Assembly (NCBI GenBank): GCA_003568315.1
Contig: PWYL01000049.1
Coordinates: 1 to 39,782 of the forward strand
DNA: 39,782 bases
Reading direction: 5' to 3'
Source: Mollicutes bacterium
GTDB lineage: Bacteria; Bacillota_I; Bacilli_A; Izemoplasmatales; Izemoplasmataceae
Numbering within the stretch: the stretch's first letter is position 1; every line of letters starts with the position of its first letter. The notes under the pieces were generated by a model. It saw only the letters and a list, made by a program, of their open reading frames with translations, was not told the DNA's origin and ran no database searches. A program made the position numbers and the translations under genes. Positions 4,310-30,917 of the stretch are shown here, piece after piece.

Positions 4310-4663
4310 CATCGCGCGTTTGTAAGCCATGTTCTGTACCCTTCCGGGCGGCAACCATTTATCTGTGCGCCTTCGCGCACCCCTTCACCGGTTCATTTCC
4401 CGTTGAAGGGCGCCCCTACCATAATTTGGGTTTCTAGCTCGCGGGGTTTACCCGTTCCAACCCGGGTGTTTCCACCCGGACTCGTCTCTGTGGCACTTTT
4501 ACAGGTACTCACGCCCCGAAGGTACGCTTTCCCGGCCGTCGCCCCCCAAGGGGCGCATGGCGTTATGGTTTCCGCCATCACGAACACTACAGGCGTCGCA
4601 GCCTGTGCTAGCATGGACTTTCCTAACGTCCCTTGCGGACGCTCGGGTGCCCAACGCGCAATG
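4310..4663 (-). ncRNA. rnpB: RNase P RNA (rnpB), Bacillus-like type
   Basis: Catalytic RNA of RNase P, which removes 5' leaders of pre-tRNAs. Conserved blocks on the minus strand: GGAAAGTCCATGCT near the 5' end, AAAAGTGCCACAGAGACGA, GGAACGGGTAAACCCC, GAGCTAGAAACCCAAATT, and ACAGAACATGGCTTACA at the 3' end. Helix P1 closes the molecule: CATTGCGCGTT at the 5' end pairs with AACGCGCGATG at the 3' end. The blocks resemble the Bacillus subtilis RNA more than the E. coli one, which suggests type B. Ends are set by P1 and may be off by a few bases. Confidence 0.95.
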
Positions 4664-25869: not shown

Positions 25870-26793
25870 TCAGACAACATGTTTTTTGAGGTAATTCAGG
25901 ACGAAATTGTGGAAGTTGATGTTGAAGTCTTTCTCGATGTAGCCCGTGAAAAGTTCGATCTTCTTCTTGTTGCCTTCCATATGGAGGACGTTGTAGCAAC
26001 GGAACAGGGAATCCTCGTAATTCACATAATCTTCCAACCGAAAATACGCAAGGGCTTTATAATAGTAGAAATATTCCCAGAGGTGATATGTTTTTCTCTC
26101 CATACCCTTACTTATGCCCAAATCACAAAAACGTATAACTTCGGAAAAATTCTTCACTATCCCGTGACTTTTACTCAATCGCATTAGTATTAGTGCATGC
26201 ATCACATCATCATAGCCACCACTCATAATACTACTTTCGTTGTCGAAAAGGTCTGTCAGTCTTTGAAGTAGCGTATTGCGGCGGGGCAATTTTAGATAAT
26301 TGAGCAGTGAACTGAGAATCAGAACTTCTATATCAGTAAAATAGTCTTGTTTCAGTATCTCTGGATAATCGATGAGGTTCATGGTTTTTTCAAATGCCTC
26401 ATCTTCTGATATCCGTTTTTGAATGAAGTCATCCAAGATTAGTGCATGATTGAAATAAGTCTTCTTTTCTTCATCAATTATAACATCCTTAGCAATCTCG
26501 TTTTTCAAGTCTTGAATGTTTTCATAATCACGATTTGCCACTGCGTTGTAAAATTGATTGAGCAATTTGGCCTGTATATTTTTTGCTTGTTCAAACTGAT
26601 TGATCAGCTTTCTACTCGGAATACCCAATTTATTGGCAAAAGCCTCAATTTTTTCATAAGGAATCTCACACTCACCGCTTCGATATCTTTGATACTGACG
26701 CAAAGAAACAACGCCATCGACAAAGTCTTCCTGCGTCAACTTTCTACCATATCTGATTTTTTCCAAGTAATTGCTGAGTTCCATAGAGTTCAT
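25870..26793 (-). CDS. HTH-TPR regulator resembling peptide-responsive RNPP/Rgg proteins
   Basis: 307 residues. An N-terminal XRE-type helix-turn-helix covers about residues 1-57 (LEKIRYGRKLTQEDF, VSLRQYQRYRSGECEIPYEKI). A long all-helical region without other motifs follows (about 65-307), as in the TPR-like peptide-binding domains of PlcR, Rgg and related regulators. The ATG at 26793 is chosen because AGGTGA lies five bases upstream; the frame is open to a TTG eight codons earlier. It is clearly more AT-rich than its neighbours. It is divergent from the secreted repeat-peptide gene across about 96 bp. Class by fold and context; exact family not proven. Confidence 0.8.
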   Translation of the reverse strand: MNSMELSNYLEKIRYGRKLTQEDFVDGVVSLRQYQRYRSGECEIPYEKIEAFANKLGIPSRKLINQFEQAKNIQAKLLNQFYNAVANRDYENIQDLKNEIAKDVIIDEEKKTYFNHALILDDFIQKRISEDEAFEKTMNLIDYPEILKQDYFTDIEVLILSSLLNYLKLPRRNTLLQRLTDLFDNESSIMSGGYDDVMHALILMRLSKSHGIVKNFSEVIRFCDLGISKGMERKTYHLWEYFYYYKALAYFRLEDYVNYEDSLFRCYNVLHMEGNKKKIELFTGYIEKDFNINFHNFVLNYLKKHVV

Positions 26794-26812
26794 GGAATTC
26801 ACCTGCTCAATC

Positions 26813-26841
26813 TTCAAAACTACGACATATCCGCGCTGTTC
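26813..26841 (+). repeat. 29-bp shared promoter element, copy B
   Basis: Identical to 25800-25828 in inverted orientation; here on the plus strand. It ends 18 bp before the -10 of the secreted peptide gene and starts 20 bp upstream of the regulator's start codon, so binding could also affect the regulator's own expression. Confidence 0.9.
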
Positions 26842-26865: not shown

Positions 26866-26889
26866 ATAGACAGAAGGAGGAGATTTTTG

Positions 26890-27186
26890 ATGAAAAAAAT
26901 ACTGAGTTTTATAGTTTTGACTCTGGCAGCTGTTACTGTATTAGCCACAGAAAATAACAATGAAATGTATCTTGACTTTGACGACCATCACATCCCTGAA
27001 CATGTCACCGTGAGTGTCGTTCCTCAGCCTAATTTCAGGGCCATAGAAAGGTCACCCAGATTTAATGAAGACATTCAACCGATGGACTTCGACGACCATC
27101 ACATCCCCGAACATGTCACCGTGAACGCGCAGCCGATCTTCCTCGACTTCGACGACCATCACATCCCCGAACATGTCACCGTCTAA
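26890..27186 (+). CDS. Secreted multi-copy peptide precursor (candidate pheromone)
   Basis: 98 residues. The N-terminal signal peptide (KKILSFIVLTLAAVTVLA) has a plausible cleavage after VLA. The rest carries three perfect copies of the 13-residue unit DFDDHHIPEHVTV; the last copy ends exactly at the stop codon. The residue before each copy is L, M or L. The spacer between copies 1 and 2 contains SVVPQPNFRAIERSPRF. ATG at 26890 with AAGGAGGAG seven bases upstream. It is divergent from the HTH-TPR regulator and shares a promoter element with the GGDEF-EAL gene. Best guess is a precursor cut to release identical signalling peptides; a metal-binding or structural secreted peptide is the alternative, given the His and Asp content. 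Confidence 0.85.
   Translation: MKKILSFIVLTLAAVTVLATENNNEMYLDFDDHHIPEHVTVSVVPQPNFRAIERSPRFNEDIQPMDFDDHHIPEHVTVNAQPIFLDFDDHHIPEHVTV
26974..27183 (+). repeat. Three tandemly arranged 39-bp coding repeats
   Basis: Copies at 26974-27012, 27085-27123 and 27145-27183 each encode DFDDHHIPEHVTV. Copies 2 and 3 are identical over 38 bases; copy 1 differs only at synonymous third positions. Spacing is 111 and 60 bp, in frame. Confidence 0.97.
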
Positions 27187-27256: not shown

Positions 27257-27532
27257 ATGAAAAAACAAGAATTCATGGTTGAACTCGATGGTGTGATCGG
27301 AACCATCCACACCTATACGCGCAACCCCTTCATGATGGGCTACACCCGTGAACTGAAACGGGCTGTCAAGCATGACGACCTCGAGAAAGTCAGAATCATC
27401 CTCGACAAGGTCATCACCTGGTACAACGAGGAGATCGAGAAAATCAAGAACGACGAGTTCGTCTTCAACAAGTCCATGCATGAGAAGGCCTACTACATTC
27501 TCCGGCAATACCGCGAAGCGCTGCAACACTAG
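27257..27532 (+). CDS. Small cytoplasmic protein, unknown
   Basis: 91 residues, not recognised. Highly charged and probably all helical, with no signal peptide or membrane segment. It reads MKKQEFMVELDGVIGT at the start and VFNKSMHEKAYYILRQYRE near the end. ATG with AAAGGAAG upstream. It lies 70 bp downstream of the repeat-peptide gene with its own candidate promoter; no terminator is seen between them, so readthrough is possible. Codon use is GC-rich like the chromosome, unlike the regulator. A role in the peptide system is possible but unsupported. Confidence 0.7.
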   Translation: MKKQEFMVELDGVIGTIHTYTRNPFMMGYTRELKRAVKHDDLEKVRIILDKVITWYNEEIEKIKNDEFVFNKSMHEKAYYILRQYREALQH

Positions 27533-27770: not shown

Positions 27771-28904
27771 TTATTGTGCGGAAAGAGCCCCCATGATGCG
27801 CAAGATGCGCACATAGAACTCGATTCCCTTCAAGAGAACTTCGTCCGTATAATCGAAAAGACTGCTGTGTAAGGGGTGGGTGAAGCCCCGGCGGGCATTC
27901 CTTGTGCCGAGGAGGAAGAAATGTCCGGGGGTCGCGCTTTGATAGTGGGAGAAATCCTCGGCCATGAGCATGGGTTCCATCTCGGTGTGTTCCTCTTCGG
28001 CGAGCATGGTCTTCATGATGGAAAAGAGGTCGGGATCGTTCTTCACGGGCGGATGGAGGAGCCGGAAGGTCGCAAAGACACGCACGTCATGCAAAGCCTC
28101 CGTCCCCCGGCAGGCTTTCTCGATGGCTTCGAGAAGCCGGTTGTGGATCGAGGACTCGAAAGCGCGGATGGTCCCGGATATGCGCGCTCGTGCGGGGACG
28201 ATGTTCTTTCCGTTTCCCGCCTCCAGGCGGCTGATATGCAGAAGGGCCGGCTCGCGGGGGTCGGTCGAGTTCTTGACGATCGTGTTCAGGCGTTCGGCAA
28301 GAGAAAGTGCTCCAAGAAGAGCATCGGAGCCTTCTTGCGGCGCCGCGCCGTGGGCGGATGCGCCCACGATTTCCAAATCGAACTCGCCGTCCTGTGCGGT
28401 CATCACACCCTCCACGAGCCCGATTTTCCCTTCGTCGAGACCGGGGAAAAGATGAAGGCCGAAGACAGCGCGGATGTCCTCTTTTGCGAAAAGACCCGAA
28501 TCGACGATCGCCTTCGCCCCGCCGTTCGTCTCTTCGGCGGGCTGGAAGATGAAAACGACGCTCTTTTCCGGCTTCTTTTTTGAAAGGTGTTCGGCAAGGC
28601 CGAGAAGGATCGCCATGTGACCGTCATGGCCGCATATGTGGGCGTTCCCATGGTGTCCCCCCGCGTTCGCCGCAGGAAGAGGCAGGGCGTCCATGTCCGC
28701 CCGGAAAGCGATGGCCTCTTTCCTCCGGCCTCGTTTTATAGCGAAAAGACCGCTCTTGGCGATGGTCTTCGGCGCATAGCCAAGCTTCTCGAGCTCTTCC
28801 TTGACGTAACGGTGTGTCTTCGGAAGACCGAAGCCGAGTTCCGCACGGTCTTGCAGATTCTGCCTGTGATGGCGCAAGGTTTCAAAAAATGTCTGTGTCC
28901 GCAT
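27771..28904 (-). CDS. M20 family amidohydrolase, probable N-acetyldiaminopimelate deacetylase type
   Basis: 377-residue metallohydrolase of the M20 (DapE/hippurate hydrolase) superfamily. The metal-site motifs are present: AFRADMDALPL, ICGHDGHMA, FQPAEETNGGAKA and the C-terminal LHSSLF. The dimerisation domain sits between. It lies directly behind a lysine riboswitch, which points to lysine/diaminopimelate biosynthesis, namely removal of the N-acetyl group from N-acetyl-LL-diaminopimelate, as with Bacillus YkuR. The ATG at 28904 follows GGGAG by ten bases; a GTG three codons earlier is too close to it. The family is sure; the substrate is inferred from regulation. Confidence 0.88.
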   Translation of the reverse strand: MRTQTFFETLRHHRQNLQDRAELGFGLPKTHRYVKEELEKLGYAPKTIAKSGLFAIKRGRRKEAIAFRADMDALPLPAANAGGHHGNAHICGHDGHMAILLGLAEHLSKKKPEKSVVFIFQPAEETNGGAKAIVDSGLFAKEDIRAVFGLHLFPGLDEGKIGLVEGVMTAQDGEFDLEIVGASAHGAAPQEGSDALLGALSLAERLNTIVKNSTDPREPALLHISRLEAGNGKNIVPARARISGTIRAFESSIHNRLLEAIEKACRGTEALHDVRVFATFRLLHPPVKNDPDLFSIMKTMLAEEEHTEMEPMLMAEDFSHYQSATPGHFFLLGTRNARRGFTHPLHSSLFDYTDEVLLKGIEFYVRILRIMGALSAQ

Positions 28905-28921
28905 GATGTACACGCTCCCAT

Positions 28922-28958
28922 AAAAAAAGAGTCCGCGAGCTTTTCAAGGCTCGCGGAC
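28922..28958 (-). terminator. Riboswitch expression-platform terminator
   Basis: Stem GTCCGCGAGC/GCTCGCGGAC followed by T7 on the minus strand, 18 bases before the M20 start codon. It directly follows the 3' strand of aptamer helix P1, the classic arrangement for lysine-induced termination. Confidence 0.9.
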
Positions 28959-29136
28959 GCATAGACAAGTCGCATACGACCGGAATATGCCCCGCTTCAT
29001 AAAAGCGCACTCCCTTCCCTTTGGGCAAGGTGGGGAACAGTCCCGCACTTGTTCAGCACGGTACCAGCTTTCGCTTCGGCGCCGGCCCCTTTCCCCTGAT
29101 AGGTACTCTTGACGTGGCGCAGCCTCTTCTATAAAG
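28959..29136 (-). promoter_or_regulatory. Lysine riboswitch (L box)
   Basis: Conserved L-box blocks on the minus strand: AGAGGCTGCG, CACGTCAAGAGTACC, GGGGCCGGCGCCGAAGC, GCTGGTACCGTGCTGAACAA and GGGACTGTTCCC. TATAGA at the 5' end pairs with TCTATG at the 3' end as P1. The aptamer sits between a promoter and a terminator that precede an M20 amidohydrolase gene, so high lysine should switch the gene off. Confidence 0.93.
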
Positions 29137-29148
29137 CTCGTTAGGGGC

Positions 29149-29177
29149 ATCCTAACACGAGGGGGGCAAACTGTCAA
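29149..29177 (-). promoter_or_regulatory. Promoter of the lysine riboswitch transcript
   Basis: TTGACA (29172-29177), 17-bp spacer, TAGGAT (29149-29154) with TGT before it. The predicted start, about 29142, lies just before aptamer P1. Confidence 0.85.
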
Positions 29178-29218: not shown

Positions 29219-29452
29219 TCATTCGGAGAGGATCTTTTGCAGTCTCTTTGCCGAGGGGACCCGTCCTTTGACCTTGACTTCGCCGTCGACGACGAGAGCG
29301 GGGGTCTGCATCACGTTGTAATCGGCAAAGACGGCCGGGTCTTCGACCTTTTCCACCGTCGCCTCGATACCGAGTGCTTCGACGGCCTTTTTCGCGTGTT
29401 CCTCCAAAAGTTTGCATTTCTTGCAGCCCATGCCCAAAATCTTGATTTCCAT
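29219..29452 (-). CDS. Small thioredoxin-fold CxxC protein
   Basis: 77 residues of the redox-active disulfide protein 2 / MTH895-like thioredoxin family. The motif GMGCKKCKLLEEH has CKKC near residues 10-13, and MQTPALVVDG holds the cis-proline. Such proteins are commonly encoded next to DUF318/ArsP-type permeases, as here (27 bp downstream). Probably the redox partner of that permease or its substrate. ATG with AGAGGTG upstream; last gene of the ArsR-permease-thioredoxin operon. Confidence 0.88.
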   Translation of the reverse strand: MEIKILGMGCKKCKLLEEHAKKAVEALGIEATVEKVEDPAVFADYNVMQTPALVVDGEVKVKGRVPSAKRLQKILSE

Positions 29453-29479
29453 ATTTTTTCACCTCTCTTGAGATTTTTA

Positions 29480-30550
29480 TCAACCATAGATCCAGATTCC
29501 CGCCGAAAGTCCCACGACAGCGGAAAGAAGAATCACGAGCAGGAAATAGGTGAACGAACGCCGGATACCCAACACTTTCGCGATGACGATCATGTTCGGA
29601 AGACTCAGAGACGGGCCCGCCAAAAGCAAAGCGGTCGCCGGACCAAGATGCATGCCGCTTTCCAAGAAGGCCTGCACGATGGGAATCTCCGTCAGGGTCG
29701 CGAAATACATGAAAGCGCCGAATGTGCCGGCAAGCAGATTCCTCGCATACGTGTTCGTCCCGGCCAAAGGCACCATGATGTCCTCGGTGAGGAAGAAGCC
29801 CACGATGCCGGCGATGAAGATGCCGACGATGAAAAGCGGGATGATGCGTTTGGCGAGGTCGCCCGTGGCGCGCGCCCATTCCTTGAGCTCTTCAAGCTCG
29901 AACCAGAAAATGATCATGGCGACAAGCGCGATGGAAAGCGCCAGCGTGACATAAAGACTCACATACTGGCCGATGAGCATGCCGAGAAGGACGAGGAAGA
30001 AGAGCGCACTCTGCCACACTTTCCGCCGCCGCTCTTCCTCTTCTTGCGTGAAGAGTCCTTGATCGGCGGTGACTTTTTCTTTCTTTTGCCAGATAAGATA
30101 CATGAGGATGCCGATGACAAGCGACACGGCCACCGCGCCGACGATGCGCACGAAACCGACGGCGAGCCCGAAGAAGGAAAACGTCAACACGACGGCGAGC
30201 ACGTTCACGGCCGGTCCACTGAAAAGGAAAGTGACCGCCGGGCCGATACCGGCGCCCTTTTTCCTTATGGATGCGAACATCGGCAACACCGAGCACGAAC
30301 AGACGGCGAGGATCGCACCGCTCACGGACGCGACCAGATAGGAAATCCGCTTGTCGGTTTCGGGACCGAAATATTGTAACACCGCCCCGGGCGACATGAG
30401 CGCGACGATGGCGCCCGAAAGCGCGAAAGCTATGGTGAGGGAGATGACCCGTCTGAAGAGGAAGAAAACCTCCCGCTCTTCTCCCGTGAAATAGTCCGAA
30501 AGGGCGCGGACACCTTCCAAGAGCACTTCTGCCAAGTTGTCGAGAAACAT
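29480..30550 (-). CDS. ArsP/DUF318-family permease
   Basis: 356-residue polytopic membrane protein with about eight segments in two blocks separated by a charged loop (QKKEKVTADQGLFTQEEEERRRK). The family core AVCSCSVLPMFASIRKKGAGIGPA resembles the CSCS motif of ArsP-type permeases, and the second half has ATLTEIPIVQAFLESGMHLGPA. Characterised ArsP proteins export organoarsenicals; many DUF318 members are untested. The ATG at 30550 follows AAGGAG by nine bases; the frame is open upstream into arsR. Preceded by an ArsR-family gene (16 bp), supporting metalloid or metal-induced efflux. Confidence 0.87.
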   Translation of the reverse strand: MFLDNLAEVLLEGVRALSDYFTGEEREVFFLFRRVISLTIAFALSGAIVALMSPGAVLQYFGPETDKRISYLVASVSGAILAVCSCSVLPMFASIRKKGAGIGPAVTFLFSGPAVNVLAVVLTFSFFGLAVGFVRIVGAVAVSLVIGILMYLIWQKKEKVTADQGLFTQEEEERRRKVWQSALFFLVLLGMLIGQYVSLYVTLALSIALVAMIIFWFELEELKEWARATGDLAKRIIPLFIVGIFIAGIVGFFLTEDIMVPLAGTNTYARNLLAGTFGAFMYFATLTEIPIVQAFLESGMHLGPATALLLAGPSLSLPNMIVIAKVLGIRRSFTYFLLVILLSAVVGLSAGIWIYG

Positions 30551-30566
30551 GGATGCAAACTCCTTC

Positions 30567-30917
30567 CTAAGCGGTCGTTCTTTTTCTGTAGGTTTCGCGG
30601 AGGATGTCTTTTTCCGCCATCCTTGATCGGTCTTTGCGGATGGTCGGATCGTCGGAAAGCCTTTCGGCCAACAATCCCACGATTTTTTGGCCGAAGGCGT
30701 CGGCTGTGAGGGAATAGGTGACGAACCTTTCATCGCGGTTCGTCTTGACGAGACCGGATTGTTTCAGCCGGGAAAGGTGTTTCGAGATCTTCGGCTGGGA
30801 GAGGTCCAACACGACGACGAGGTCGCACACGCAAAAATCCCTCTCCCGTAAAGCCAGAAGGATGCGCAGTCTGGTCTCATCGGCGAGCGCCTTGTGGATT
30901 CCGACTGTTTCTTCCAT
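30567..30917 (-). CDS. ArsR-family metal(loid)-responsive repressor
   Basis: 116-residue winged-helix repressor. ALADETRLRILLALRERDFCVCDLV carries the classic CVCDL metal-binding box in helix alpha-3, used by ArsR for arsenite or antimonite. The recognition helix is LSQPKISKHLSRLKQSGLV. A basic C-terminal tail follows. ATG with GAGGAGG seven bases upstream. It heads the operon with the permease and the CxxC protein and should repress it through the palindrome over the transcription start. Confidence 0.93.
   Translation of the reverse strand: MEETVGIHKALADETRLRILLALRERDFCVCDLVVVLDLSQPKISKHLSRLKQSGLVKTNRDERFVTYSLTADAFGQKIVGLLAERLSDDPTIRKDRSRMAEKDILRETYRKRTTA

Follow-up and report, generated by a model that had tools for sequence, protein, structure and literature searches.

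In the solved lysine riboswitch, as the accessible part of PMC3764141 describes it, L2 and L3 form a kissing loop of six pairs, which is essential for function and poorly conserved in sequence. The accessible text of PMC5584792 places lysine riboswitches before the oligoendopeptidase F gene of Mycoplasma, in an operon which its authors take as a transporter, and before the kal/kce catabolic genes in other bacteria. The same text considers the 'amino hydrolase' found in the dap operon of Macrococcus functionally unrelated; we infer that this gene is dapL. The mentions of M20 seen in the available parts of PMC5584792 and PMC3766115 sit in reference lists. Our literature search, of incomplete coverage, did not retrieve any account of a DapL-type gene standing alone behind a lysine riboswitch, and nothing on N-acetyldiaminopimelate deacetylase combined with lysine auxotrophs, or on lysine riboswitches combined with mycoplasma and peptidase.

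The locus compared here lies in the window, that is, the whole stretch of 39,782 nt analyzed, from a genome (G000) of 1.41 Mb in 83 contigs with a completeness of 96.55%. A promoter of sigma-70-like type, a lysine riboswitch and an intrinsic terminator precede the gene of an M20 amidohydrolase (table 1). The promoter, the full aptamer, the M20 hydrolase as downstream target and the position of the gene alone, without dap neighbors, had all been read in the earlier note and hold. Its interval, 28922-29177, corresponds to the stretch from the -35 box through the T-tract.

Table 1. Features of the riboswitch-M20 locus (positions in the window)
Feature	Position	Strand	Basis
Promoter TTGACA-17-TAGGAT, TG before the second hexamer	29149..29177	(-)	Motif scan
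Lysine riboswitch aptamer, compact, 142 nt	28995..29136	(-)	RF00168 match, full model
Intrinsic terminator, 10-bp stem GTCCGCGAGC/GCTCGCGGAC and T-tract	28921..28958	(-)	Motif scan, covariation
M20 amidohydrolase ORF, 377 aa, ATG start, putative solo DapL paralogue	27771..28904	(-)	TIGR01891, PF01546, tree

The 10 pairs of the terminator stem proper occupy 28958-28931 (-), with the T-tract after them, and an alternative GTG start of the M20 ORF is open at 28913. Shuffles of the leader region lead to an expectation of 0.4 promoters and 1.1 terminators; two of each were observed, the second promoter match and the second terminator match both lying inside the M20 gene. TTGACA is also found upstream of each of the seven other riboswitch-M20 leaders compared. 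The terminator had been described as overlapping the aptamer. Its presence was verified, but the two are separated by 36 nt. Any switching must use alternative pairing.

The covariance search of the window matched RF00168 over the full length of the model with 62.1 bits (E 5e-14), against a gathering score of 30 bits. This confirms the element as a real lysine riboswitch, with lysine binding as the prediction, and it is the sole lysine riboswitch found in the search of the G000 genome. It shares with the family the P1 helix, the conserved core (44 invariant columns, including GCCGAAG and CTGG) and the terminator platform. Across 12 related leaders, nine of solo and three of operon M20 genes, 97.2% of the cells in P1 and the terminator are paired, and 8 of the 15 pairs are changed on both sides. 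The slid-partner controls showed at most two such pairs, in a comparison where the structure is favored over its slid versions by having been drawn from the same 12 sequences.

The window element differs from RF00168 in its target, a lone hydrolase, and in its length, which is 142 nt against 182 in the model. Stretches of 30 and 25 model positions (P2b/L2 and P3/L3) are replaced by 4 nt each. Similarly, the related aptamers have 0-4 nt in place of 17-34 model positions of the P2 and P3 arms (10 alignments printed of 12 matches). Among the 45 riboswitches of the order, those before M20 genes (n = 8) measure 137-143 nt and the other 37 measure 164-182 nt. The shortening of both arms leaves no room for the usual L2-L3 kissing loop; the window aptamer lacks this loop, which was not treated as defining because its sequence is poorly conserved. 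The compact aptamer would either work without it or regulate more weakly, and offers a natural case in which to ask if the kissing loop can be dispensed with. In the truncated leaders of G001, G006 and G019, the GAGCC of the terminator pairs with a GAGGC of the aptamer. This pairing was not seen in the truncated leaders of G000, G003, G004, G014 and G017. With three leaders for it, five against it and pairs that hardly vary, such an antiterminator is unproven.

The M20 protein matches TIGR01891 (253.8 bits) and PF01546, and its AlphaFold model is a confident M20 fold (mean pLDDT 91.4). In the structure search, general M20 neighbors came first; the nearest solved structures were a Staphylococcus aureus aminohydrolase, Nalpha-acylglutamine aminoacylase, IAA-amino-acid hydrolase and YxeP. 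The beta-alanyl-lysine dipeptidase PM20D2 (7yh4, 8zel) was placed lower among the matches. It has the M20 fold in common with the window model and its activity releases lysine from an N-acylated form, but it is a human enzyme with only 18% identity to the model.

The closest comparison by sequence is DapL, the N-acetyl-LL-diaminopimelate deacetylase of YkuR type. The search for M20 proteins covered 41 of the 49 genomes of the family, and G176 and G177 were added through the riboswitch search. From a scan of genome contigs, the best 80 of 584 rows were kept; contig C175 of G017 proved identical, in reverse orientation, to L164, and the M20 protein of L199 identical to that of G024. A first tree included 81 of 115 rows and a second 64 of 91 (the 81 plus 10 new ones), with 27 outgroup, distant or duplicate rows left out. 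In the maximum-likelihood tree of these 64 M20 proteins, the window protein belongs to a clade of 14 members lying outside dap operons, the solo clade (support 100/98; G000, G018, G022, G007, G177, G019, the solo copy of G176, G006, G004, G003, G001, G017, G023 and G008). The operon DapL of the family (G175, G174, the operon copy of G176, and G014) are located beside it with a support of 99/98. Both are joined by the dapH-adjacent proteins of G082 and G064, from other families of the class, in a group of 20 rows (94/93). The window protein is thus placed with dapH-linked M20 enzymes and not with general M20 proteins, and to this extent the DapL annotation of the earlier note stands. On the other hand, its sub-clade is separate from the operon DapL of its own family, which counts against the pathway named from the control element; a gene's pathway should not be named from the riboswitch alone. 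Adjacency is an imperfect label, since the M20 protein adjacent to lysA in G195 groups with the general M20 clade, and dapH-adjacent refers to dapH within about 4 kb (of the 10 named loci, six have it at 12-179 nt and four at 3.3-4.0 kb). Loci L160 and L162 are found near the general clade with weak support.

The gene layouts in the relatives that bear the pathway suggest the origin of the window gene. In G175, the order is riboswitch-M20-riboswitch-lysA-dapF-dapA-dapB-dapH-patA. G174 shows M20-lysA-dapF-dapA-dapB-dapH-patA with no riboswitch match, and G014 shows riboswitch-M20-lysA. In G110 and G188, M20-patA is divergent from riboswitch-lysA-dapF-dapA-dapB-dapH, G021 follows the same plan, and in G189 and G190 M20-patA is divergent from riboswitch-lysA. 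The names dapF, dapA and patA were given by inspection of the G021/G014 query proteins and not by family models. Judging by context, the M20 gene of the lysA-bearing genomes is DapL, and its operon copies in G175, G176 and G014 are placed behind a lysine riboswitch, as is the window gene. Both M20 types are present in G176, where they occupy two loci with a riboswitch of their own each: an operon locus (riboswitch-M20-riboswitch-lysA) and, apart from it, a solo riboswitch-M20. The two kinds in G176, the position of the clade outside the operons and the riboswitch retained before 9 of the 14 solo genes mark the solo gene, at the level of sequence, as a DapL paralogue which would still be lysine-controlled where the pathway is gone.

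Twelve positions (D72, C91, H93, D94, H96, E124, E125, H151, H185, N234, D317 and H346) are unchanged in all 14 solo proteins, and in the M20 group they presumably have a metal-binding or catalytic role. The solo clade therefore agrees with DapL in its active-site positions, besides sequence grouping and fold. Its best marker is D at position 172, present in 11 of the 14 solo proteins and in none of the 25 operon-type DapL. T at position 126 is less clean (13 of 14, but also 6 of 25). Y284 is invariant in the 25 operon-type proteins and is replaced by H in seven of the solo ones, the window protein included. Most of the DapL-type columns persist in the solo clade, so that the sequences do not establish a shift in specificity. 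A long branch (1.07) leads to the window copy, which deviates at eight columns common to 91-97% of the DapL-group rows, plus one at 86%.

These substitutions and the long branch, together with the mostly kept DapL-specific columns, could be expected of an unadapted DapL which outlived its pathway and was kept by chance or through a promiscuous side activity. Such a relic is quite unlikely, because the solo proteins form a clade apart from operon DapL, all 14 of them have the twelve active-site-type positions intact, and G176 keeps both types, each behind its own lysine riboswitch.

The nine solo genes preceded by a lysine riboswitch belong to four genera. In four others the upstream DNA is visible and contains no lysine riboswitch, and in G023 the contig starts just before the gene, so that the upstream region is cut off. 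Six genomes (G000, G001, G003, G004, G006 and G019) yielded no lysine riboswitch other than that of the M20 gene, and this is the strongest argument that the product of the enzyme is still tied to lysine. By inspection, the orphans without riboswitch of G007 and G022 are near gamma-glutamyltransferase-like ORFs, and the DapL-type orphans of G010 (L251), G015 (L252) and G011 (L253) come after metal-ABC-transporter-like genes, with no lysine riboswitch nearby. A search for other RNA elements before the riboswitch-less orphans (12 loci, E up to 0.1) returned only the known riboswitch of G021.

Neighborhoods of this kind would suit a broad-specificity enzyme, either a general aminoacylase or a carboxypeptidase, with lysine acting as a proxy for amino-acid hunger and a riboswitch inherited from the dap operon. 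The NCBIfam match also agrees with it, as it is to the general TIGR01891 subfamily, and the neighboring carboxypeptidase CpsA and DoeB2 models remain below their cut-offs. The retention of the riboswitch across four genera, the covariation of P1 and terminator and the six genomes with this gene as the only target found are evidence to the contrary, and make a general enzyme rather unlikely.

The pathway genes were searched in the own genome and in the order. In G000, the best dapH candidate scores 43.5 bits where the cut-off is 231.75, dapB has no match and lysA no candidate. The same three genes are not over cut-off in G004 (96% complete), G019 (93%) and G003 (91%), and each passes in only 2 of the 41 genomes of the order, G014 and G021. 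Among the 14 genomes of the solo clade, one (G176) has lysA over cut-off, and dapH and dapB pass in none of the 12 searched for them (all but G176 and G177). The solo genes are thus found in a different setting from operon DapL, the exception being the lysA of G176. The assemblies of G001 (64%) and G006 (72%) are incomplete. In the family as a whole, lysA passes its cut-off in 9 of 49 genomes. Within genus g15 it is present in G174, G175 and G176 and was not found in G177 (82% complete), G178 (80%) and G019. murE is over cut-off in none of the 41 genomes of the order, with weak matches in four; the order therefore appears wall-less, and in a wall-less cell diaminopimelate (DAP) would be needed only for making lysine.

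The acetylase branch of lysine synthesis, to which the gene had been assigned, and the dapH expected elsewhere in the genome do not survive this search, and an acting N-acetyl-LL-DAP deacetylase is rejected for G000. A genome lacking dapH is the very result that the earlier note had set as refuting. A true deacetylase with a complete pathway, whose other genes were lost in assembly gaps, would agree with the grouping with DapL, with the split of the assembly over 83 contigs and with relatives (G175, G174, G110, G188 and G021) which have lysA, dapB and dapH and dapF-, dapA- and patA-like genes. However, it is highly improbable, given that dapH, dapB and lysA are missing at cut-off from all four of the assemblies that are 91-96.55% complete and that the tree sets the gene apart from the operon DapL of its family.

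As key genes of the pathway were not found, scavenged compounds are the more probable source from which the enzyme releases lysine. We consider it moderately probable, from the sequence data, that the solo gene encodes a DapL-derived, lysine-repressed deacylase or peptidase of lysine salvage, acting on N-acyl-lysine or lysyl peptides. The host cells would be unable to make lysine. At low lysine, the leader would be read through and the M20 amidohydrolase made, whereas lysine bound to the compact L-box aptamer would close P1, let the terminator form and stop transcription. The enzyme would have arisen from DapL by duplication, probably within the wall-less family, and would split imported N-acyl-lysine (Nalpha- or Nepsilon-acetyl-lysine) or short lysyl peptides to set lysine free. 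N-acetyl-lysine is N-acetyl-DAP minus one carboxylate, and the substrate shift would therefore be small. The OFF logic, the substrate and the salvage role are what we infer from the arrangement.

The Mycoplasma oligoendopeptidase F is similar in that a lysine riboswitch precedes a hydrolase that could free lysine in a wall-less host, but its peptidase family is unrelated to M20. The proposed salvage role would mean that a biosynthetic enzyme and its riboswitch were kept and apparently redirected after the loss of the pathway, with both states found within genus g15. A more specific version, in which a DapL paralogue of wall-less bacteria has become a dedicated N-acyl-lysine deacylase under a minimal riboswitch that works without the P2-P3 kissing loop, is offered tentatively; it would add a compact aptamer form and a target class new to lysine riboswitches.

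A link of the solo gene to beta-lysine or lysine fermentation was also considered. kamA-type genes are found in G000, G001 and G003 and not in G004, G006 and G019; this patchy distribution does not track the solo gene. The copy of G000 (L246:6084-7349, G000:C34) is a single lysine-2,3-aminomutase-type gene with 308 bits to TIGR00238, scoring below the copies which adjoin riboswitch operons.

Of the 45 lysine riboswitches in the order, 16 (L073, L063, L068, L066 and others) are followed at 4.0-6.1 kb by a kamA-type gene on the same strand, behind CoA-transferase-like genes by inspection. These loci look like lysine fermentation, for which lysine would need to act as an ON signal.

Upstream of the locus, the window carries a small CxxC-bearing ORF (no Pfam match), an ArsP-type permease and an ArsR-type regulator (29220-30917 (-)), and similar-looking permease and ArsR-type ORFs were seen by inspection upstream of the M20 gene of G001. 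Downstream of the M20 gene, a small ORF beginning MKKQEFM (27257-27532 (+)) gave no match in the Pfam search; a similar one is present in G019 (L054:36-311 (+)).

Further on, a 99-aa ORF (26887-27186 (+)) has a secretion-signal-like start and three exact copies of DFDDHHIPEHVTV, the DNA of which differs at synonymous sites only. A 315-aa ORF (25870-26817 (-)), divergent from it, has by inspection the look of an XRE-type regulator. The Pfam search gave no match for either, and the two could possibly be a multi-copy peptide-pheromone precursor and its receptor. The window also contains a bacterial RNase P RNA of class B at 4318-4658 (-), with 284.7 bits.
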